DNA of 53,873 nt from positions 1 to 53,873 of the IMG/VR virus record IMGVR_UViG_3300033553_000840, one strand, 5' to 3'. Source of the stretch: a virus. Below the pieces are notes generated by a model. That model was not told the DNA's origin. It was given only the letters and a program-made list of their open reading frames with translations, and made no database searches. Positions within the stretch are counted from its first letter, which is position 1. Each line of letters opens with the position of its first letter. Positions 5,819-17,408 of the stretch are shown here, piece by piece. Position numbers and translations under genes: made by a program.

Positions 5819-5836
5819 TATTGCATATGTGCAATA
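5819..5836. promoter_or_regulatory. Second palindrome upstream of CI
   Basis: TATTGCA TATG TGCAATA, perfect 7-bp arms, 36 bp before the CI start codon and just ahead of a TATAAT at 5839. It has no similarity to the AGTCGC operators, so it may be the autoregulatory CI site. Confidence 0.45.
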
Positions 5837-5871
5837 TATATAATATTCTAAAGATATTAGGAGGTGATAGT

Positions 5872-6513
5872 ATGGCTTCACTTGTAGCTCAACGCATAAA
5901 AGATAGAAGAAAAGAACTAGGTTATAGCGCAGAATATTTAGCCGATAAGCTTGGCATCAACAGATCAACTGTTTATAGGTATGAAGCTGGTGAAATTGAT
6001 AGTGTTGATGTACGTGTCGCGTACGAATATTCAAGAATTCTTGGAGTTTCAATAGGTTACCTTATGGGGTGGACTGATGATAAATATGATTATAAAGAAG
6101 ATCTTTCGCAGCCTAATTCTCATTTTAATGCAGTATGTATACCTTTACTCGGAACAATAGCAGCAGGGTTGCCTATACTAGCAGAAGAAAACATCGAAGA
6201 TCACTTTTACATAGATGCCCGGATGAAGGCTGATTTTGCATTGCGAATTAAAGGAGATAGCATGATTGATGCTGGTATCTTTGAAAATGACGTGGTGTTT
6301 CTGAAACGTCAAGATGATCTTGAGAATGGGCAGATTGGCGCTGTTCTTGTTGAGGATGAAGCCACTCTGAAAAAGTTTTACCGAGATGGCAGTACCATTG
6401 TGCTTCAGTCTGAAAATGACAAATACCGCCCAATCATCCTGACCAATGGCAATGTGCGCATACTGGGCAAGCTGGTGGCGGTATTGAATTTTAAGGACAC
6501 TACTATAATTTAG
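5872..6513 (+). CDS. CI-like repressor with LexA-type peptidase domain
   Basis: 213 residues from the ATG after AGGAGGTGAT. N-terminal XRE helix-turn-helix (RRKELGYSAEYLADKLGINR, STVYRYEAGE). The C-terminal S24 peptidase domain has the Ala-Gly cleavage site in GTIAAGLPIL, the catalytic serine in IKGDSMIDAG and the lysine in ATLKKF. RecA-stimulated self-cleavage would induce the prophage under DNA damage. First gene of the rightward lysogeny operon, divergent from the Cro-like gene. Confidence 0.92.
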   Translation: MASLVAQRIKDRRKELGYSAEYLADKLGINRSTVYRYEAGEIDSVDVRVAYEYSRILGVSIGYLMGWTDDKYDYKEDLSQPNSHFNAVCIPLLGTIAAGLPILAEENIEDHFYIDARMKADFALRIKGDSMIDAGIFENDVVFLKRQDDLENGQIGAVLVEDEATLKKFYRDGSTIVLQSENDKYRPIILTNGNVRILGKLVAVLNFKDTTII

Positions 6514-6524
6514 GGGGCGATCAT

Positions 6525-6995
6525 GTGACTGCTGATGAACTGTATTCTCAGATAAAGAACATGTTCAATGATATTGGATTGAAACTAGAACCTGGCGAAC
6601 TTTCTCTGAAGAAAAACGCCACTGACTATTCAATTAAGATCCTTAAAAATGTTGGATTTAAGATTAAGAAAGGCAACCGTGATCACTTTCTAATAAGAAA
6701 AATTCCAGGCTATAATCTTCCGGATAGATACAAGGTTGATTCATTGAAATCCTTTCCTTTGTACCATCGAGTCTGGCTTGTATTTGATGAAGATCTATCC
6801 GATTTAAAGAAATACCTCTTACAGATGTACATAAGTGCCCTTCCAGATGATGATGTATTTGGTTGCTGCAATGAATTTAAGGTGTGCAGTGATAATATGG
6901 CATGCTTGAAAAATCTAAAGTTCTCCGCCCGGTGTATGTATAAAGTTAATCTCGAAGCTGGCCGAATATTCTATGGAATTAATCGGAACATTTAG
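6525..6995 (+). CDS. Hypothetical protein downstream of CI
   Basis: 156 residues from a GTG start after AGGGGGCGAT, 11 bp after the CI stop. Begins TADELYSQIKNMFNDIGLKL; the middle has basic stretches (KIKKGNRDHFLIRK) and YHRVWLVFDEDL; two cysteine pairs lie near the C-terminus. I do not recognise a family; it is not an obvious ImmA peptidase since no HExxH is present. Probably cotranscribed with CI and expressed in the lysogen. Confidence 0.65.
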   Translation: MTADELYSQIKNMFNDIGLKLEPGELSLKKNATDYSIKILKNVGFKIKKGNRDHFLIRKIPGYNLPDRYKVDSLKSFPLYHRVWLVFDEDLSDLKKYLLQMYISALPDDDVFGCCNEFKVCSDNMACLKNLKFSARCMYKVNLEAGRIFYGINRNI

Positions 6996-7010
6996 CGGAG
7001 GTGAATCTTT

Positions 7011-7946
7011 ATGTCTTTGAATTTTGTGGCTCTTGATTTTGAAACTGCCAGTTATAGACGGAGAAACAGTGCTTGTTCCATTGGAATTGTTGTCCATTCG
7101 AATGGATCTGTTTATGAAAAGCATTCTCTGATTAGACCTGAACCATTGCGTTTTGATCCATTTAACATTGAACTGCACGGCATTACCCCAGACATGGTTA
7201 AAGATGCACCTACTTTTGGTGAATTATGGCCAGAATTCGAAATCTATCTGAAGAATAATATTGTTGTAGCTCATAATGCCGCTTTTGATTTTAGTGTTAT
7301 TCGGTATTCACTTGCTCAATATAAAATTGAATCCCCAATCATCAACTATTTTTGCACTTGTTCTCTTTCAAAAAGAGCACTTCCGGGGCTGATTAACTAT
7401 AAATTACCCACAGTAGCACATTCATTGAATATCAGTTGTAAACATCATGATGCGTTGGAAGATGCGCGCACTGCTGCAGGTATCATTAATAGTTTATTAC
7501 ATAAAAATAAAGTGGAATCTATTGAATCTCTCGCCGAGTTATATAAAATTTCGATCGGTCAAATTCACCCGGACGGCTACACTCCATGTAGTATGGCTCA
7601 GGCAATTAAGAGAAAAAAGAAATATATAAACTATTCTAAACTGATGCCTCATTCTAATGAAATTGATGAAGATAATTTTTTCTATAATAAAAACGTTGTA
7701 TTTACAGGAACCCTTAGTGGTTACACCAGGAAGGAAGCTGCACAAATAATTGTAGATATAGGCGGCACCGTCGGAAACACAGTTACATGTAATACTGATT
7801 ATCTTATTGTTGGCGAACAGGATTATTCGAGGTTTTCTGATGGTAAGATGAGTAGTAAAATGAAGAAGACTCTCGAGTTGTCACAAAATGGTAAAGATGT
7901 TCAAATCATAACTGAAAGTGATTTTATGGAGAATGTGTTGGCTTAA
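7011..7946 (+). CDS. DEDDh 3'-5' exonuclease with C-terminal BRCT domain
   Basis: 311 residues, ATG after GGAGGTGA. N-terminal DnaQ-like exonuclease: Exo I in FVALDFETAS, Exo II in VVAHNAAFDFSVI, Exo III in CKHHDALEDARTAA. The C-terminus (from about 220) is a BRCT domain: VVFTGTLSGYTRKEAAQII, VTCNTDYLIVGE. Such proteins resemble stand-alone DNA polymerase III epsilon homologues. In a prophage lysogeny operon next to two HEPN-type proteins, it is a candidate defence or DNA-end-sensing nuclease; that role is inference. Confidence 0.85.
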   Translation: MSLNFVALDFETASYRRRNSACSIGIVVHSNGSVYEKHSLIRPEPLRFDPFNIELHGITPDMVKDAPTFGELWPEFEIYLKNNIVVAHNAAFDFSVIRYSLAQYKIESPIINYFCTCSLSKRALPGLINYKLPTVAHSLNISCKHHDALEDARTAAGIINSLLHKNKVESIESLAELYKISIGQIHPDGYTPCSMAQAIKRKKKYINYSKLMPHSNEIDEDNFFYNKNVVFTGTLSGYTRKEAAQIIVDIGGTVGNTVTCNTDYLIVGEQDYSRFSDGKMSSKMKKTLELSQNGKDVQIITESDFMENVLA

Positions 7947-7967
7947 TTAGAAATAGGAGGTGCTATA

Positions 7968-8627
7968 TTGGAAGTCGACAAAGATACTAAATGGATTCAC
8001 TGCAATTCTTGTAATCGCTCAACAGAACATGTATTAGTTTCTGAGTATAGCCGAAACAAAGATCAAAACATCGGTGAAGATTATAATCCATTTATTATTA
8101 CTGAAACCTTTAGCTGGTTCGTATGGGAGTGCAATGGATGTAAAGTACTGACTGGAGAATCAAGCTATTCTTTCTCAGAAGATTATGATTGGCTGGGTAA
8201 TCCTGTAGAAGATATCAATTTTTATCCAGAGCGCAAAAAGGAGTATCATCCAGTAAAACAGTTTAATGAAATACCTGAAAAGCTTGAAGGATTGTACAAC
8301 GAAGTAGTTCTTGCCTATAATAATTCATGTGGAATATTGGCAGCAATTGGTCTTCGTTCACTGCTAGAAGGTATATGTGTTGATAAGGGTGTTACAGCAG
8401 ATAACATTCAGAAAAAAATTGATAAAATGAATTTTATTCCTGATAGTATTCGCAATAACCTTCATGCTTTTCGGTTTCTTGGTAATGACGCTGCCCATGA
8501 ACTTATTATTCCGGATAAAAAAGACCTCCAAATGGCTATTTTTGTAATCGAAGACATTCTTAATATTGTTTATGATCTTGATTACAAGAGTAAATTAATT
8601 TTTGATAAGTTCAATCGCAAGGCTTAA
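7968..8627 (+). CDS. DUF4145 (HEPN-like) protein with zinc finger
   Basis: 219 residues from a TTG start 7 nt after AGGAGG. An N-terminal treble-clef-like zinc site (HCNSCNRSTEH and WECNGCKVL) precedes an all-helical DUF4145 domain (SCGILAAIGLRSLLEGICVD, FLGNDAAHELIIPDKKDLQM). DUF4145 belongs to the HEPN-like superfamily and recurs in anti-phage and restriction contexts. Expected to act with the adjacent exonuclease (7011-7946), from which it is separated by 21 bp. Confidence 0.8.
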   Translation: MEVDKDTKWIHCNSCNRSTEHVLVSEYSRNKDQNIGEDYNPFIITETFSWFVWECNGCKVLTGESSYSFSEDYDWLGNPVEDINFYPERKKEYHPVKQFNEIPEKLEGLYNEVVLAYNNSCGILAAIGLRSLLEGICVDKGVTADNIQKKIDKMNFIPDSIRNNLHAFRFLGNDAAHELIIPDKKDLQMAIFVIEDILNIVYDLDYKSKLIFDKFNRKA

Positions 8628-8669
8628 ATAATTATTCATCAATAAGTAATAAGACAAAGGAGATGAAAT

Positions 8670-9050
8670 ATGATGATACAAGAGGAAATTAGGGTTATTG
8701 CTATACCCGATGAATACACTGTATATGTCAACAGCGGTTCTGAAAATAAACTACTTAAAAGAGGCCATATTCTTCTGATCGTAGAAATTGGAAAAGAGCT
8801 CTTTGATGTTGATGGAACTTCACTTGGAAATGCTATGCGATCAAAAGAAGAAGTTGAAGTCCTCCAGATCTATCCTAAATATTCCGTATGTAAAAAAAGA
8901 GAAAAAACTATCACATCATACGATAAGATACTATCAAATGCAGGAAAAACAACATATTCCAAATTGAATATAGGCAAATCAAATATTGTACCAATTTTTT
9001 CTGATAATGTTTCACCAGTTGAAGTTGGTGATTTGGTCATTATTAAGTAA
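8670..9050 (+). CDS. Beta-rich hypothetical protein
   Basis: 126 residues; tandem ATG codons at 8670 and 8673 behind AAAGGAGATG. Sequence alternates hydrophobic strands (EIRVIAIPDEYTVYVNSG, HILLIVEIGKELFDVDG) and ends VSPVEVGDLVIIK, reminiscent of small barrel domains. Not recognised. Last gene before the abiF RNA promoter, so probably the third member of the exonuclease/DUF4145 operon. Confidence 0.65.
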   Translation: MMIQEEIRVIAIPDEYTVYVNSGSENKLLKRGHILLIVEIGKELFDVDGTSLGNAMRSKEEVEVLQIYPKYSVCKKREKTITSYDKILSNAGKTTYSKLNIGKSNIVPIFSDNVSPVEVGDLVIIK

Positions 9051-9064
9051 TTTGTAAATTTTTG

Positions 9065-9093
9065 TTGAATATTGTTCACAAATAGGGTAATAT
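9065..9093 (+). promoter_or_regulatory. Promoter of the abiF-type RNA
   Basis: TTGAAT (9065-9070), 17-bp spacer, TAATAT (9088-9093), placed directly ahead of the structured RNA and 98 bp before the AbiF start codon. Each hexamer matches consensus at four of six positions. Confidence 0.5.
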
Positions 9094-9099
9094 ATAGGT

Positions 9100-9191
9100 A
9101 CAGGAGCTAGCAACTAAGGCTAGCCATTGGTCGGGCTTTATCGACTAGAGAGAGACCTCTATTACCCTTTCGGGTAAGGAGGTCTCTTTAT
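9100..9191 (+). ncRNA. abiF-type structured RNA
   Basis: Region between the promoter and the AbiF-like gene with several helices: GCTAGC-aactaag-GCTAGC, GTCG...CGAC, and a long closing hairpin AGAGACCTC...GAGGTCTCT containing TTACCC-TTTC-GGGTAA, followed by TTATTT. Weinberg and colleagues described an abiF RNA motif upstream of Abi_2 genes; position and architecture fit that class. The 3' arm of the last hairpin contains AAGGAGG (9176-9182), the Shine-Dalgarno of the downstream gene, so the RNA can both terminate transcription and hide the ribosome site. Confidence 0.7.
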
Positions 9192-10223
9192 TTGTCCCCA
9201 ATTTACGATAAACCATTTAAAACATTCCATGAACAAATAGCGCTGATGCAAAGCAGGGGCGTTATTGTCAATGAAAACTCCCGGACTTTTGAGATACTCA
9301 GCTCTATCTCTTATTTTTCGCTGATGAATGGTTACAAAAACACTTTTTTAAAGAGTCCAAACGATGATATTTTTATTGACGGAACAACGTTTGAGATGAT
9401 TTACCAAATATATCTTCTGGACTCCTCCATTGCCAGCATTCTACTCAAATACATTCTTATCGTAGAGCGCTCTTTAAAAACAAAAATTGCTTATCGTGTA
9501 TCCCAAGGTTATGACGTACATCATTCAAAATATTTGGATCCAAACAATTATTCTATAAGGCCTGCTCATAAACGTAAAAGGAATGAGCTGTTCAGTTATT
9601 TGTACAATTTTTGCACTAAACCGTACAGAAACACCATTTCTTATTATTATTGCAAAAATAAAAATCATGTGCCACCTTGGATTGTTGTCAATGACATTAC
9701 TTTTAACAAAACAATTGACTGGTATGAAATAATGAAAGCTGCTGACAAAACCTACATATGCCAAAATATGATTCCTTACGGAGATCCCAGTATTAATATA
9801 GCTGACAAAAAAGAATTTTTTATTAATGCACTGCATCTTCTTCATGCTTATCGTAATTCGATAGCGCATGGTAATAAAATTTTTTCTCCCCATATCCGTT
9901 CATTGTTGCCTAAGCGTCCGCTTTTCTTATTAGTCGATGATTCCAGCATTCTTTCAAAAAATGAATATAATGCTGGTTTGGGCCAGAAAGATTTATTTGC
10001 AGTATTTGTTTCGTTGATACTCTTAGTAAATAATATGGATTTAATACGTTCGTTTTTCTTGGACTTATCATATGTGCTAGATGATTACACTGATGAGATG
10101 ATTATGAACAGAACTTATTTTGAACTATTGGGACTTCCAAATGATATTATGGATAGACTGCTTCTTCTTTCCTCTAAAAAAGCTACTTTTTTGAATGACT
10201 ATCCATGTGAAGTAGATTTATAA
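9192..10223 (+). CDS. abiF: Abi_2 / AbiF-like abortive infection HEPN protein
   Basis: 343 residues from a TTG start, 9 nt after AAGGAGG. The opening (KPFKTFHEQIALMQSRGVIV then SISYFSLMNGY) is the Abi_2 (PF07751) signature. A HEPN RNase motif R-x4-H is at residues 221-226 (RNSIAH). Family members stop phage growth, probably by RNA cleavage, and are paired with a structured RNA as here. It is the penultimate gene of the lysogeny operon, between DUF4145/exonuclease cargo and the integrase. The ribosome site lies in the RNA hairpin, implying RNA-controlled expression. Confidence 0.85.
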   Translation: MSPIYDKPFKTFHEQIALMQSRGVIVNENSRTFEILSSISYFSLMNGYKNTFLKSPNDDIFIDGTTFEMIYQIYLLDSSIASILLKYILIVERSLKTKIAYRVSQGYDVHHSKYLDPNNYSIRPAHKRKRNELFSYLYNFCTKPYRNTISYYYCKNKNHVPPWIVVNDITFNKTIDWYEIMKAADKTYICQNMIPYGDPSINIADKKEFFINALHLLHAYRNSIAHGNKIFSPHIRSLLPKRPLFLLVDDSSILSKNEYNAGLGQKDLFAVFVSLILLVNNMDLIRSFFLDLSYVLDDYTDEMIMNRTYFELLGLPNDIMDRLLLLSSKKATFLNDYPCEVDL

Positions 10224-10265
10224 ACCTCTCGTTTAATTTTTTAAGTTGCAGAAAGGACGAATTTT

Positions 10266-12083
10266 ATGAACGCTGTAATCTATGCTCGATACAGTAGCGA
10301 TAACCAGCGGGAAGAATCCATCGATGCACAGGTGCGTGCAATTAAAAAGTATGCGCAGCATCATAGCATGAAAATCATCCATATTTACACCGATGAAGCC
10401 AAAACTGCCACCACGGACATGCGCCCAGGTTTTCAGCAGATGATGAAAGACGCTGAAGACGGGCGTTTTTCCGGTGTGCTTGTTCATAAGCTGGACCGCT
10501 TCGCAAGGAACCGGTATGATTCAGCATTCTATAAACGGCATCTTAAGGTCAATGGTGTTAAGGTGTACTCTGTGCTTGAGAACATTGATGACAGCCCTGA
10601 GAGTATCATTCTGGAAAGTCTGCTGGAAGGGATGGCGGAGTATTACAGCCTTAATTTGGCCAGGGAAGTAATGAAAGGGTTGAGTGAAACAGCCTATCAG
10701 TGTAAGCACACTGGTGGCACTCCTCCCCTTGGGTATGACATTGCACCTGATAAGACTTATGAGCTTAATCTTTTTGAGGCTGAGGCTGTGCGGATCATCT
10801 TCTCCATGTATCTGGAGGGCCATGGTTATGGTGCCATTATCGACAAACTGAATGAGCGTGGTCATAAAACCAAGCTTGGTCGGGCATTTGGGAAGAACAG
10901 CATTCATGACATTTTGAAGAATGAAAAGTATTCGGGGGTTTTTGTTTTCAATAAGACACAACGTAAGGTTGAGGGTAAGCGGAATGGTCATCTGCAGAAG
11001 CCTGACGAAGAAATCATCCGAGTTCCCGGAGGGTGTCCGGCTATTATCACGCCTGAAATGTTTGAAAGGGTGAAAAGAAAAATGGAAGAGAACAAGCATC
11101 GTACAGGGCAGTACAAATCTAAGCGGGTTTATATTCTTTCCGGATTAGTCTTGTGTGGCAAGTGCGGATCGGCCATGGTTGGTAAGCATGCGCGTTCCGG
11201 CAGGAATAAAACTGATTACTCTTATTATGAATGCAACGCAAGGCGCAATAAGCGCACCTGTGATGCGAAACCTATCAGTAAACCCTTCGTGGAAGACCTG
11301 GTGATTGATTTTCTTTATGATAATCTTTTTTCTGATGATGCCATTGGCCCGGCCAGCGATAAGATTTATGAAGATATTCAGAAGTCTTCTCAGCAAGTTC
11401 CGGATGAAGTTAAACAATTTCAGGACCAGCTGAAGGATGCTGATGCAAAAGTTGAGAGTATGCTTCAGTCTGTCATGGATGGAATGTATCACCCGTCAAT
11501 GAAAATTAAGATGAAAGAGTTGGAAGAAAAACAGATTGCCTTGCAGCGAAGGCTGGATGAGGCGGCCAAGATTGACCGGAACCTTTCTTTTACACGGGAC
11601 CAGATTTATCATTTTCTTTCCTTGTATCAGGACATTAAGAACTTCTCTGATCTAAAAAAGAAAAATGCTGTCAATCTGTTTGTTGATAATATTATTGTAA
11701 ATGAAGATGATGTGCATTTGTCGGTGGTTACGCGGCCAGACGCTAAGGGACCGCTCAAAAAAGCAAGAACTACCGGCGAGGACACCGGTAGTTGGGATTT
11801 GTTGGTGGAGACGACCCTTCACCCACAGAGGTACAAAATAGCATACATCTTCACTTGCGGCTTGTTGTGCCGATTGTTTTTTATCGTCACTCTATCGCAT
11901 CTGTATAGTTTTTTATTAGGCTCCCTGTATGGGGGCCTTTTTTTTGCGCAAAAAAATAAAGCCACCCCGAAGGGTGGCGGTGGCCAGGCAGTGAAAGGAG
12001 TAACACTTCTGGCCCTGGCTGGCTATTTAGGGTTCTGCAGCTTTCTTTTCTCTTTTCTCCCGTGCCTTTGTAATTTCTTCTAG
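10266..12083 (+). CDS. int: Large serine recombinase (integrase), C-terminus altered at attachment site
   Basis: 605 codons, ATG after AGAAAGGACG. Resolvase domain with catalytic Ser10 (IYARYSSDNQREES) and RFARNR; Recombinase domain (GGTPPLGYDI, LGRAFGKNSIHDILKNEKYS); zinc ribbon (LCGKCGSAM ... YYECNARR); coiled coil around 380-460. The recognisable family ends near residue 505. The remaining 100 codons are hydrophobic and unrelated (IAYIFTCGLLCRLFFIVTL) and run across an intrinsic terminator at 11918-11945 without a stop. The likely cause is that attP lies in the 3' end of the gene and integration replaced its stop codon. Ends the rightward operon of phage A. Confidence 0.9.
   Translation: MNAVIYARYSSDNQREESIDAQVRAIKKYAQHHSMKIIHIYTDEAKTATTDMRPGFQQMMKDAEDGRFSGVLVHKLDRFARNRYDSAFYKRHLKVNGVKVYSVLENIDDSPESIILESLLEGMAEYYSLNLAREVMKGLSETAYQCKHTGGTPPLGYDIAPDKTYELNLFEAEAVRIIFSMYLEGHGYGAIIDKLNERGHKTKLGRAFGKNSIHDILKNEKYSGVFVFNKTQRKVEGKRNGHLQKPDEEIIRVPGGCPAIITPEMFERVKRKMEENKHRTGQYKSKRVYILSGLVLCGKCGSAMVGKHARSGRNKTDYSYYECNARRNKRTCDAKPISKPFVEDLVIDFLYDNLFSDDAIGPASDKIYEDIQKSSQQVPDEVKQFQDQLKDADAKVESMLQSVMDGMYHPSMKIKMKELEEKQIALQRRLDEAAKIDRNLSFTRDQIYHFLSLYQDIKNFSDLKKKNAVNLFVDNIIVNEDDVHLSVVTRPDAKGPLKKARTTGEDTGSWDLLVETTLHPQRYKIAYIFTCGLLCRLFFIVTLSHLYSFLLGSLYGGLFFAQKNKATPKGGGGQAVKGVTLLALAGYLGFCSFLFSFLPCLCNFF
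11918..11945 (+). terminator. Intrinsic terminator after the integrase
   Basis: AGGCTCCC, loop TGTAT, GGGGGCCT, then seven T. An 8-bp stem with one G-U pair. It ends rightward transcription but lies inside the open integrase frame, so the transcript would have no stop codon. Confidence 0.8.
11946..11978 (-). terminator. Intrinsic terminator of the phage B late operon
   Basis: On the minus strand GCCACCC TTCG GGGTGGC (11961-11978) followed by TTTATTTTTTT. A 7-bp stem with a UUCG tetraloop. It lies 49 bp downstream of the holin gene stop and marks the end of phage B late transcription. Confidence 0.85.
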
Positions 12084-13357: not shown

Positions 13358-13525
13358 TCACCTCCTGAAGTTTTCGCATTTCATACACTTTCTGCATCCA
13401 CAGTCCCAGGACGGCTTTCGTTGTGATAATTCATTTTCTTCCAGCTCCTGCCTGTCCTCAATCAAGCTCATCATTTCCTGTTCAAGTTGATCCAACAGCT
13501 TTCTGATTTTATTGAATCGCTGCAT
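13358..13525 (-). CDS. Small coiled-coil protein with Cys cluster
   Basis: 55 residues. Starts with TAATG overlap on the upstream gene and ends in AGGAGGTGA, which doubles as the ribosome site of the next gene. N-terminal coiled coil (IRKLLDQLEQEMMSLIEDR), C-terminal WDCGCRKCMKCENF, a possible metal site. The double overlap is good evidence that it is translated. Function unknown. Confidence 0.65.
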   Translation of the reverse strand: MQRFNKIRKLLDQLEQEMMSLIEDRQELEENELSQRKPSWDCGCRKCMKCENFRR

Positions 13526-13989
13526 TAAGCTGCCTCTGGTTCCCAGTACCTATTATACGGCTCGTCGCCGTCAGGCACGGTTGTGTTGGCAGGTATCTTC
13601 GAGGTCCATACCTTGCCTTTGTAAGTAACTTGCTCTCCCACTGCATAGGCGTTATGCCCGCCCGTAGGTTGCGTCCATTCAGGGATCACACCGACGGGTG
13701 CATGAGATTTGAAAAGGGCCGGCACTGTGTCAGGCGTCCAGTCGGCCTGTGATGTATGGGCCTGTACGGTTTCGTACAGTGCACCGTGGTAGGCAGCAAT
13801 ATCTCCGACTTTGTAGTTGGTGTCTGGCGCCCAGGCTGGATAGATGCCGACCAATTGTGCCATTTCTTCAGGGGTGAGCTCTGATGTTTTGATCAGGTTT
13901 CTGGTTGCGATTTGGCCTGCTGTGCGGGATGCTGCTCTTTCCTGGTTAAAGACAATGGCTCTTTGCAGTCTTTCTTCGTGGGTTAACAT
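13525..13989 (-). CDS. Tail-associated protein with two chitin-binding-like modules
   Basis: 154 residues. The N-terminal 50 (AIVFNQERAASRTAGQIATR) are helical and XkdW/tail-fibre-accessory like. They are followed by two CBM5/12-type modules: YKVGDIAAYHGALYETVQAH and YAVGEQVTYKGKVWTSKIPA with conserved Trp residues. It lies right after the DGR cassette, so it may be a second carbohydrate-recognising tip protein or chaperone for the diversified protein. Confidence 0.7.
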   Translation of the reverse strand: MLTHEERLQRAIVFNQERAASRTAGQIATRNLIKTSELTPEEMAQLVGIYPAWAPDTNYKVGDIAAYHGALYETVQAHTSQADWTPDTVPALFKSHAPVGVIPEWTQPTGGHNAYAVGEQVTYKGKVWTSKIPANTTVPDGDEPYNRYWEPEAA

Positions 13990-14270
13990 TATACTTCACC
14001 TCCTGTTGGTTGTCCTAGCATGGTGTCAATCACTTCTTGCAGGCGCTGGTTTTCCTGTTCCAGGGCATTTATGCGTTGTTCTTGTTGTAGTTTTTGCCAT
14101 TCCTCTTTGGTGTACTGAGTTTCGTCGTAGGTGTACCAGGTGGATTCATTTTCCTGGTCGTCAGTTCTGGTTTCTTCTTGAATGTTTTCTCTTGCATAAA
14201 CGGTTGTCGGGCTTGTGGTTTCGTCAACTGGCAATGGCTGTTCTGTGCTTTCGGAGCGGTATGTTTTCAT
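13989..14270 (-). CDS. Tail accessory protein with C-terminal coiled coil
   Basis: 93 residues; start lies inside the 3' end of the reverse transcriptase gene (47-bp overlap) with GAGGGGAG upstream. Low-complexity acidic N-terminus (STEQPLPVDETTSPTTVYAR), aromatic centre (WYTYDETQYTKEEW) and coiled coil (INALEQENQRLQEVIDTML). Similar small proteins follow tail fibre genes in Firmicutes phages. It is not like the four-helix Avd accessory protein of DGRs, although its position would allow it. Confidence 0.55.
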   Translation of the reverse strand: MKTYRSESTEQPLPVDETTSPTTVYARENIQEETRTDDQENESTWYTYDETQYTKEEWQKLQQEQRINALEQENQRLQEVIDTMLGQPTGGEV

Positions 14271-15321
14271 TTCGACTAATCTCCCCTCTTGAATATTGTC
14301 TTATAATGGCTTTCATGGCTTTGATCGACACATAAGGCACTACTCTTGTTTTAAATACCTTGTACGTCTGTGAGTGTTTTATCCATCCCAGATAACTGAT
14401 AATTGCGGCCGCATCTTTGAATGTGGCTTTTCCTTTGTTGTAGATGCGCTTTGCTTTACGTGTGATGCGCAACATCAGGCTTTTTCTTAATATTGTTTTG
14501 TGCCTGAAAAACCTGAATCCCATAAAATCCAGCGCTCTTGCATCTAGCTTAAATACCTGCCAGTTTTTCTTGATTTTGAGGTTCATTTTTTCCAGGTACC
14601 CCATGATCATGCGCACGGCTTTGTGTAGTTTTCTTTTGTTGGGCCCAAACAGAATCATATCGTCCATATACCTCATGTAGTACTTTATTTTCAGCACTTG
14701 TTTTATGAGGTGGTCCAGCTTTTGCAAAATGAAATTAGCCAGCCATTGGCTTGTTAAATATCCGATTGGCAGGCCTTTTGGGTAGCTGTCTATGATGGTG
14801 TCCAGGAGCCACAACATTTTAGGGTCTTTGATGATGGTTCTGATACTGGCCTTGGCCAGGGTGTGCGTAACTGATTCATAAAATTTTGTGATGTCTAATT
14901 TTGCACTGTATTTAGTGTTTTTCCTGTCTTTTCTGATCCACTTTTCAAGTTTTGGTTTTCCAAAATGCGGTCCTCTGCCCGGCATGCTTCCGCAGGAGTA
15001 GGCATATGCACCTTTTTCTATAACTGGCTGTAATTGTAGTACCAGTGCCCAGTGTATGATTTGGTCTGGATAAAAATCGATTTTTGTAACTTTCCGCTGT
15101 TTCTGTCCCGCTCCTTCTCTAATAAAGGATTCCTTGTATGGGCATGGTTTGTATGTGCCGGTGACCAGCATTTTATGAATTTGGTATGCGTGTTTTTCAA
15201 CGTCTGCCAATACTTCCTGGACTTCTTTTCTATCTTTCTTGTCTTCAGCTGCTCGGTAAATTGCAGCTGTTATGTTTTGCATTGATATTGTTCTTTCAAA
15301 TATGTGTTTTTCCGTCTTCAT
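14224..15321 (-). CDS. DGR reverse transcriptase
   Basis: 365 residues, ATG after AAAGGACATCGTGG. Retroviral-type RT fold with palm motifs: LDITKFYESV (142-151, first catalytic Asp), GLPIGYLTSQ (183-192, the DGR variant of the RT motif with SQ) and YMDD (218-221). The C-terminus has the basic thumb region (ALDFMGFRFFRHKT...). It makes error-prone cDNA from the TR RNA, miscopying adenines, and the cDNA replaces VR in the tail gene. Gene order VR, TR, RT on one strand matches known DGRs. No Avd gene lies between VR and RT. Confidence 0.93.
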   Translation of the reverse strand: MKTEKHIFERTISMQNITAAIYRAAEDKKDRKEVQEVLADVEKHAYQIHKMLVTGTYKPCPYKESFIREGAGQKQRKVTKIDFYPDQIIHWALVLQLQPVIEKGAYAYSCGSMPGRGPHFGKPKLEKWIRKDRKNTKYSAKLDITKFYESVTHTLAKASIRTIIKDPKMLWLLDTIIDSYPKGLPIGYLTSQWLANFILQKLDHLIKQVLKIKYYMRYMDDMILFGPNKRKLHKAVRMIMGYLEKMNLKIKKNWQVFKLDARALDFMGFRFFRHKTILRKSLMLRITRKAKRIYNKGKATFKDAAAIISYLGWIKHSQTYKVFKTRVVPYVSIKAMKAIIRQYSRGEISRNENIPLRKHRTAIAS

Positions 15322-15330
15322 CCACGATGT

Positions 15331-15471
15331 CCTTTCTTATGGCCTATGGGTGGTTCGAATTCGCATGAACCTACTTGACCCATCCAGTTTCGGCTTAATT
15401 TTTACCTAGGGGTAAGGAATATGGCACACCATCGTTCGAGATGATTTTTGTTACTTTTCCATAAGAATGGA
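15331..15471 (-). other. DGR RNA spacer closed by TR/RBS inverted repeat
   Basis: On the minus-strand RNA the bases directly after TR (TTCTTATGG, 15467-15459) are the perfect complement of CCATAAGAA (15342-15334), just ahead of the RT start. Across one A-A mismatch the pairing continues: TCC at the TR end (15471-15469) with GGA (15333 side, 15332-15330), the core of the RT Shine-Dalgarno. The 116-nt spacer is thus a closed domain. A 14-nt copy of TR (15353-15366) lies within it. Confidence 0.6.
15353..15366. repeat. 14-bp copy of a TR segment in the spacer
   Basis: GTTCGAATTCGCAT is identical to 15487-15500 inside the TR. It contains the self-complementary CGAATTCG, so the RNA copies in TR and spacer can pair with each other. 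Confidence 0.75.
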
Positions 15472-15576
15472 GAGCGACGCGCCAATGTTCGAATTCGCAT
15501 TGGAGAGCGGATTGTTCAGATTCACCGTGCCGGCCCCGCAAAGAGAGCCATTGTTACGATTGCCACTGACAAGCGC
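15469..15576 (-). repeat. DGR template repeat (TR)
   Basis: 108 bp in the noncoding gap between the tail gene and the RT gene, 218 bp from and parallel to VR. Of 108 aligned positions 94 are identical. Read on the minus strand it has AAT/AAC codons at the sites that vary in VR (for example AATCGTAACAAT against GCTCGTGGCTAT). The 3' end is GC-rich (GGCGCGTCGCTCTCC), as expected of the IMH* part, after which TR and VR diverge. It has 21 adenines on the transcribed strand, 12 of them changed in VR. Confidence 0.92.
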
Positions 15577-15600
15577 TGCGCATGTGTGCCATATCCCTAT

Positions 15601-15665
15601 ATATGATTTTGATTTATTGTTGATGTGTAATTCTTTCCGGGGGCTGGCTGCCCCCTTGCCCCCGC
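15601..15665 (-). other. Hairpin just downstream of VR
   Basis: GGGGGC TGGCT GCCCCC at 15639-15655, a perfect 6-bp stem, 11 bp past the tail gene stop. On the minus strand no T-tract follows, so it is not an ordinary terminator. In the Bordetella phage DGR a hairpin/cruciform directly after VR stimulates retrohoming; the position fits. Confidence 0.7.
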
Positions 15666-17408
15666 TTAACTGGTCTTCTCAAGGAAGGAGAGCGACGCGC
15701 CAAAGTTCGAAGTCGCAAGGGAGAGCGGATTGGACACCGTCACCGTGCCGGCCCCGCAAAGAGAGCCATAGCCACGAGCGCCACTGACAAGCGCCCACTT
15801 TATAGTGCCTCCAACTGCGTACCAAAGTCCGCATGTATAGTACGTTGTTGCTGATGCACCGTTTGTGTCCGGGATGAATCCTAAATCTTCAACGATTTTT
15901 GCATCACGCAGATACCCGCCTGATCCGCCTGTTGGAAATACGCCGGTAGGTGTGTAGCCGGCGGGCATTACATTTTCGTCTGGTGTCGCTGGTTGCAGGT
16001 ATGGCGGTGTTTTTCTGACGTGTATTTCTCCATTCAGTGCCAGGAGCATGCCGCTCATTCTTTCCCAGTAGTTACCCCAGTAGTTTTCGATGTAGAACAC
16101 TTTTACCGCCTGGGTTGTAGTGCTGTAACCGTGGAATTGGCCTTTTCCTTTCAGGGCTCCTGGTGCTATGTAAACACCTGAATCGCTGTTCCCGTTTCCA
16201 AATGTCAATTGATCTGCTGTTGTTTTGCCTATGAGCCATAGCAGGTAAGTGATGTAGTCTCGTTGCGATTTGTAACCTATATGCCATCCAATCCCGTTTT
16301 CTTCCGCTCTTTCGATTTCTATTTGTCCTGTTTGACTGGCCATGACCGCACCCGTTGCCAGTGACCGAAGACGTGGCGCTACATACGATCCGTCAAACAT
16401 TGCTTTGTACATGTAATCCTGTATGTTTCCATTTTCGTCAGTAAATGCATGGGCGTGGTAGCTTGAATCGTACTGCACGTTTGAAAAAACAATATACTCA
16501 TGTGTTGCGTCTTCCCATTCTTTTATCCATAACCGTTTGAACTGGCTCATTGCATTTCCTGCAAAGGCTGTGCTTCCGATGTCCGAGGCTGTTCCGTCGG
16601 CTTTTTTTGTTTGATCGTTTCGGTCTAGTCGGTAGGCGACGGTACCATCGTAGTTTAGCATGACGGGGGTGTTTATCCATTCGCAGAAGCCTCTCCATGA
16701 TCCGTAATTAAATTCGTCTGCTGAATAGTTCATGCCGGCCGGGATCATGCCTACAGCGTCGTATAGGTATTCCACCCGTGTAAAGGGGTTCGAGTCGTTT
16801 TTGTCGATTTTTATGCCGTATCGGAATGTGCCAGGTGTGCCGGCGCTGATAATGCCATTTTCGTCAATAGTGATGGTGTTTCCGTCTACTTTTACGTGGC
16901 CTAGGGCTGCGTCTGTTGCTTTATCGTTTTTGTGCACATTAAAATCTTGTTGCGTTACATATATTCCCGATTCCACTGTTATGCTTACATTTTCCGCTTC
17001 CCCAATTGTTGTCGTAATATTGTGTATCGATTCAATCACTGTTGATCCTTGATCTGCAGGTAAGTAGTCTGCAAATGCCCCAGCATTTGTATAGCAATAT
17101 AGTATTTCTCCTTCGTCTGGGTCATTTGCAAATATGCCAATTTCTCTCACAAAAAATCCCTCTGCAAGATCTTCATTTGTTACATATATTCTTATTCTTA
17201 CTGTTCCATCTCCAATCACTGACATATCTCCTATGTCCAGTGTTTTTTTCTCACTTATGAGCACGTTCAAATCTTTTATTTCCTGTTCTGGTTCCAGTGT
17301 TCCGTCACCTATGCCAGATCTAGTGAACTGCAGTTGTGTTCCTATTTGGGCTTTTGCCTGTAATGCTAATCCCTTATTTGTTAGTTGAATGTTCGGAAAA
17401 TCCGCCAA
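15666..17408 (-). CDS. DGR-diversified tail (receptor-binding) protein
   Basis: 580 residues. The N-terminus (NIQLTNKGLALQAKAQIGTQ, LQFTRSGIGDG) is the phage tail-collar/fibre attachment type found downstream of gpI. The C-terminus from about 480 has the DGR target pattern: GGSGGYLRDAKIVEDLGFIP, TTYYTCGLWYAVGG and the variable segment ALVSGARGYGSLCGAG to ASLSF, expected to form a C-type lectin fold. VR covers the last codons to 10 before the stop. The protein probably sits at the tail tip or fibre end and binds the host surface, with ligand contacts diversified by the DGR. Confidence 0.9.
   Translation of the reverse strand: MADFPNIQLTNKGLALQAKAQIGTQLQFTRSGIGDGTLEPEQEIKDLNVLISEKKTLDIGDMSVIGDGTVRIRIYVTNEDLAEGFFVREIGIFANDPDEGEILYCYTNAGAFADYLPADQGSTVIESIHNITTTIGEAENVSITVESGIYVTQQDFNVHKNDKATDAALGHVKVDGNTITIDENGIISAGTPGTFRYGIKIDKNDSNPFTRVEYLYDAVGMIPAGMNYSADEFNYGSWRGFCEWINTPVMLNYDGTVAYRLDRNDQTKKADGTASDIGSTAFAGNAMSQFKRLWIKEWEDATHEYIVFSNVQYDSSYHAHAFTDENGNIQDYMYKAMFDGSYVAPRLRSLATGAVMASQTGQIEIERAEENGIGWHIGYKSQRDYITYLLWLIGKTTADQLTFGNGNSDSGVYIAPGALKGKGQFHGYSTTTQAVKVFYIENYWGNYWERMSGMLLALNGEIHVRKTPPYLQPATPDENVMPAGYTPTGVFPTGGSGGYLRDAKIVEDLGFIPDTNGASATTYYTCGLWYAVGGTIKWALVSGARGYGSLCGAGTVTVSNPLSLATSNFGASLSFLEKTS
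15687..15794 (-). repeat. DGR variable repeat (VR)
   Basis: Last part of the tail gene, aligned without gaps to TR (+218). Differences: 12 at TR adenines and two adjacent ones (15737, 15738) at a T and a C. Changed codons, TR to VR: AAT-GCT, AAC-GGC, AAT-TAT, AATCTG-ACGGTG, AAC-TCC, AAT-CTT, AAT-ACT, ATT-TTT. Replaced residues are spread over the predicted ligand surface, which shows that the cassette has been active. Confidence 0.92.

Follow-up and report, generated by a model that had tools for sequence, protein, structure and literature searches.

The accessory protein Avd is present in most, though not all, diversity-generating retroelements (DGRs), and the DGR of Bordetella phage BPP-1 (mtd-avd-TR-brt) needs it. 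Homing in BPP-1 also needs a hairpin or cruciform, and the published hairpins have stems of 7–10 bp and four-nucleotide GRNA loops (PMC3240598). Roux et al. found that alignments of template repeat (TR) and variable repeat (VR) overwhelmingly have at least 75% of their mismatches facing adenines (PMC8144416). A DGR has been published for Faecalibacterium phage FP_Epona (MG711462); of the Faecalibacterium phages studied by Cornuault et al., only two had Avd, and the authors proposed that a different small protein might serve in the rest (PMC5883640).

Here we analyse a viral stretch of 53,873 nucleotides (the window). We are highly confident that positions 14224–17408 of the window hold a complete phage-type DGR, carried by a myovirus-type prophage. 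A preliminary description made from the letters alone had placed target, VR, TR and reverse transcriptase (RT) in canonical order on one strand; this order holds, and the coordinates and counts given there were right apart from small differences in repeat trimming. All parts, including a hairpin after the VR and a spacer RNA, lie on the minus strand (Table 1). The reading as a complete DGR follows from these parts and their order together with intact RT motifs, adenine bias, target fold, hairpin and spacer RNA. The element is real and is an ordinary member of a well-described family.

Table 1. Features of the DGR cassette, in window coordinates
Feature	Position	Strand	Description
Target gene	15666..17408	-	580 aa, TTG start; tail-collar-fibre-like, with a C-terminal C-type-lectin-type (DGR variable protein) fold
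VR, variable repeat	15681..15794	-	114 bp, in frame (frame 0), ends 5 codons before stop
GC hairpin	15639..15655	-	GGGGGC-AGCCA-GCCCCC, after VR and stop codon
TR, template repeat	15463..15576	-	114 bp; 22 A; nine AAY codons in VR frame
Structured spacer RNA	15333..15414	-	Rfam RT-18 (RF03021), between TR and RT
DGR reverse transcriptase	14224..15321	-	365 aa; IGYLTSQ (aa 186) and YMDD (aa 218) intact
Small ORF	13989..14270	-	93 aa, overlaps RT 3' end; PHROG 20201

Repeat pair, reverse transcriptase and tail-protein target

The TR/VR pair is the sole long repeat between 13 and 19 kb, is unique in the host genome assembly, and has copies that are 86% identical. The upstream copy is taken as the VR because of where it ends in the 580-aa ORF. 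Of the geometry first described, a 108-bp VR with a parallel TR 218 bp downstream, the parallel arrangement stands; the repeat measures 114 bp, and the 218 bp are the start-to-start offset, leaving a gap of 104 bp. The two copies differ at 16 positions over 114 bp, and 13 of these mismatches fall on TR adenines, against a background of only 22 adenines among the 114 TR bases (hypergeometric p = 5e-9). When the VR is treated as the template instead, 0/16 mismatches fall on A. The earlier count of 12/14 over 108 bp is the same comparison trimmed at the 3' end. Seven of the nine AAY codons are changed in the VR frame, from N to A, G, Y, T, S, L and T. This directional bias shows past mutagenic retrohoming, as the preliminary description had claimed. 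Three mismatches lie outside adenines, namely an adjacent T>G and C>G and one T>C in the end region of the repeats, and we count these against the DGR model.

RT searches led to 118 loci with related RTs, 96 of which carry an adenine-biased repeat pair near the RT; in most of the 96, the TR ends 110–130 bp before the RT start and the VR lies upstream of the TR. The preliminary description held that mismatches not biased to adenine in related copies would speak against a DGR; 73 non-redundant pairs have 1240 mismatches in all, and 1175 of these (95%) face TR adenines. The window's share (81%) is a little lower because of its three non-adenine changes, and lies within the usual range of at least 75% (PMC8144416).

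The RT matches the RVT_1 domain (E 3.6e-16), and its best solved relative is 8ub7 (E 9e-28), which we take to be the BPP-1 bRT complex. Its reading frame is open, and its IGxxxSQ and YMDD motifs align with those of BPP-1 bRT taken directly from the BPP-1 record, in agreement with the DGR-type RT first proposed. An altogether different origin, in which a chance or ordinary gene duplication happens to sit beside an RT of retron, DRT or group II type, can be set aside with near certainty. Weak matches to generic RT and defence profiles point in that direction, but those to DRT, retron and group II profiles fall far below the NCBIfam cut-offs. The DGR-specific IGxxxSQ motif, the best match to BPP-1 bRT and the fold of the target all argue against it as well, and the one-sided adenine bias, repeated across the 73 non-redundant pairs, refutes it.

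The comparison of loci also brought out several departures from the usual layout. At about 5760–5890 of L096 (Pumilibacter muris NZ_CALPCN010000002.1), the repeat copy at the place of the TR no longer has its adenines, retaining one AAY codon where the TR of its sister locus L095 has 11; the L096 RT is open, and the template has apparently been overwritten by mutated sequence. One TR serves two tandem VRs in L012, and L034 has two paralogous targets whose VRs are about 3.4 kb apart, the second being the upstream one. The targets of L109, L112 and L113 are about 43% identical to the window's and their RTs only about 31%; exchange of targets and RTs among cassettes seems to take place. In L115 and L116, from two MAGs, the start of the best RT match is some 570 bp more distant from TR and VR than usual, and the first search matched these RTs in weaker pieces, which suggests a split or frameshifted RT.

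The target gene directly follows the Tail_P2_I and Baseplate_J genes, and its product matches the tail protein family PHROG 5302 (E 3.6e-85). Its N-terminal region is tail-collar-fibre-like, with a Pfam tail-fibre match that is below cut-off. A sequence search of the C-terminal region against the PDB gave no match, and the fold search alone was successful. An AlphaFold model of residues 186–580, built with a 23-sequence alignment, has a mean pLDDT of 91.8. Searched against 350,542 PDB chains, the C-terminal fold matched only three chains below E = 0.001, all of them Thermus aquaticus TaqVP (best E 6e-11), and the next five matches are Mtd variants. The whole-chain TM of 0.45–0.49 is modest and below 0.5, and therefore indicates the same fold class as TaqVP and Mtd rather than a near copy. 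The C-type-lectin-like end first ascribed to this tail gene is thus matched by TaqVP and then Mtd at the top of the search, and the fold prediction put forward as a check on it yields a confident model with a DGR variable protein fold. The VR spans the last strands and loops of this model.

Post-VR hairpin and spacer RNA

We regard the GC hairpin that follows the VR as a probable target-recognition hairpin or cruciform. With a 6-bp stem and a 5-nt loop, it is slightly outside the published dimensions (PMC3240598). When the strand is folded alone, the predicted DNA minimum is an alternative 7-bp stem with a larger loop at the same place. A GC hairpin follows the VR within 60 nt at 41 of 70 non-redundant loci and follows the TR at 1/70, and 16 of 1400 random segments (1.1%) contain one; this agrees with the hairpin or cruciform that BPP-1 requires for homing (PMC3240598). 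The four-base loops in relatives read GRNA in 0/25 cases, and the five-base loops are mostly GGYCA-like.

The spacer between TR and RT matches Rfam RT-18 over the whole model (1–84 of 84) with 60.8 bits, against a gathering score of 41.3. RT-18 occupies the same place in 36 of the 42 relatives scanned, and a separately made spacer alignment has compensatory changes in 5/7 predicted pairs. We accordingly take RT-18 to be the spacer RNA of the DGRs in this clade. Our literature search found no paper describing RT-18.

Accessory factors and the small open reading frame

The bAvd profile (PF22296) has no match in the window's own genome, an assembly that is 75% complete, or in the records of 50 relatives, many of which are fragments, though avd would be expected close to the cassette. 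The same profile found Avd in the positive control, BPP-1 (2e-37), and also in the genomes of two loci with distant RTs (L118 and L119). From these negatives the clade appears to be without Avd. An Avd inside the cassette was ruled out: only ~90 bp separate the stop codon from the TR, and PF22296 is negative there. Given the need for Avd in BPP-1, its absence is counted against the DGR model; because Avd-less DGRs have been published (PMC5883640), it is not an excluding feature.

A missing Avd or other factor would also fit a spent element, in which homing took place in the past and has now stopped, leaving the VR frozen. We consider this unlikely. Avd is nowhere in the assembly, incomplete as that is, the three non-adenine mismatches hint at some drift, and L096 is an example of template loss within this clade. 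The RT, however, is open with all motifs present, the TR is still rich in AAY codons, and the hairpin and spacer RNA are intact; moreover, the whole clade lacks Avd and yet has strong and varied adenine bias. No VR variants of the same phage were found by a pattern scan of viral contigs, and we count against the DGR model this lack of variants that would show current activity. Present-day activity of the element is suggested by analogy with BPP-1.

The small ORF that overlaps the 3' end of the RT probably encodes a tail-fibre assembly chaperone for the variable protein. This reading comes from its longer relatives, in which a matching N-terminal part is fused to Phage_tail_APC or XkdX. The window protein has no Pfam match, including PF16778; since the PF16778 domain is seen only in longer relatives (for example in L010 and L114), the chaperone role is a likely function rather than a family assignment. 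BPP-1 bbp4 was rejected as a homologue (E 0.25).

Alternatively, the product of this ORF just behind the RT might stand in for Avd throughout the clade, as an accessory factor that helps cDNA synthesis or homing, a proposal that we regard as improbable. The ORF is closely linked to DGRs. A profile of the small ORF has five matches in 196 genomes of the class, all directly after a DGR RT: four adjoin an RT found by our search, and the fifth (L143) has both an RT and a homologous target as neighbours. Matches in annotated phages (Epona, MT835666 and Butyrivibrio phages) are likewise all beside, and after, DGR RTs, and the independently built PHROG 20201 profile found only DGR loci in 291 genomes. 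Against a substitute for Avd stand the fusions to Phage_tail_APC or XkdX, the clear profile matches in only 47 of 108 related loci, the different-looking small ORFs at the same place in other loci, and a presence that tracks the RT clade less well than it does the type of target protein (25/26 loci with a window-type target). Because the window-type target is itself seen only with DGRs, linkage alone leaves room for a homing role of the small ORF. The fuller proposal, that an Avd-less clade with RT-18 spacer RNA and non-GRNA loops uses a different accessory factor, namely the RT-overlapping small protein, is if anything slightly less probable, and we favour the tail chaperone.

Proposed mechanism, prophage context and comparison with known systems

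We propose that the RT copies a transcript spanning the TR and the RT-18 spacer RNA into cDNA and would misincorporate opposite template adenines as it does so; cDNA priming within the spacer is suggested by what happens in BPP-1. Through mutagenic retrohoming, the mutated cDNA would then take the place of the VR in the 3' end of the tail gene, guided by the common 3' end of TR and VR and by the GC hairpin after the VR, while the TR would persist as the master copy. As the expected outcome, Asn (AAY) codons would change at random within what is probably the ligand-binding face of a C-type-lectin-type tail protein, and the phage population would thereby sample new receptor-binding tips. BPP-1, the fold and the position in the tail suggest that this protein binds a receptor and that its diversification may retarget the phage; the diversified tip is probably the part of the tail protein that grips the host.

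The 92-kb contig that carries the DGR has head, tail sheath, tape measure, portal and terminase genes. Just past the window lie a repressor and a serine integrase, followed by host genes such as that for phosphoglycerate kinase. A second repressor–integrase module is located at 5821–12083 of the window, and its integrase is 56% identical to the first. Modules of repressor and serine integrase thus flank the phage genes on both sides (window 5821–12083 and L131 403–3548), and there are probably two adjacent prophages. The DGR prophage probably runs from ~12.1 to 57.5 kb of the contig and adjoins a second prophage. Its att sites were not found; a shared att core after the two integrases was considered, and the 13-bp match obtained was not convincing. 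Between the repressor and integrase of the window module are genes on the plus strand for a DUF4145 protein (7968–8627) and an Abi_2 abortive-infection-like protein (9192–10223), possibly superinfection defence cargo. A CBM5/12 carbohydrate-binding protein is encoded after the DGR (13525–13989, minus strand); a similar protein has the same place in several relatives, and in L034 one lies beside the upstream target. Judging by the named relatives, the host bacterium probably belongs to the Clostridia. None of the few genus or family relatives examined showed the RT.

The locus is a further example of a tropism-type DGR in a tailed prophage, complete and apparently used. The clade comparison brings together strong adenine bias without Avd, Rfam RT-18 in the position of the BPP-1 spacer RNA, and hairpin loops at odds with the published GRNA rule, and this set of loci makes the homing of Avd-less DGRs testable.

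Compared with BPP-1, the window has the same order of target, TR and RT, a VR at the 3' end of a tail gene, adenine mutagenesis, a post-VR GC hairpin, a spacer RNA at the same place, a homologous RT and a target of the same fold class as Mtd. It differs in having no Avd gene, RT-18 instead of the Phage_DGR spacer RNA, an AGCCA hairpin loop instead of GRNA, and a target that also has a tail-collar-like N-terminus. Epona shares the gene order (baseplate J, Tail_P2_I, tail-collar fibre, Mtd-like protein, RT and a small ORF of the same family) and the lack of Avd, whereas its two tail parts are separate genes that form one gene in the window, its RT is 34% identical to the window's, and its spacer RNA is RT-4. 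In the Butyrivibrio phages Arawn, Idris and Closwp03, the RT is 44% and the C-terminal region of the target 36% identical to the window's, and the order and small ORF are the same, but the N-terminus of the target is not common with the window; Closwp03 also has no RT-18 match above cut-off. Finally, TaqVP (5vf4) is the best fold match to the C-terminal region of the target, over about 385 columns, and at a TM of about 0.45–0.49 and 15% identity it has the same fold class in another domain arrangement.
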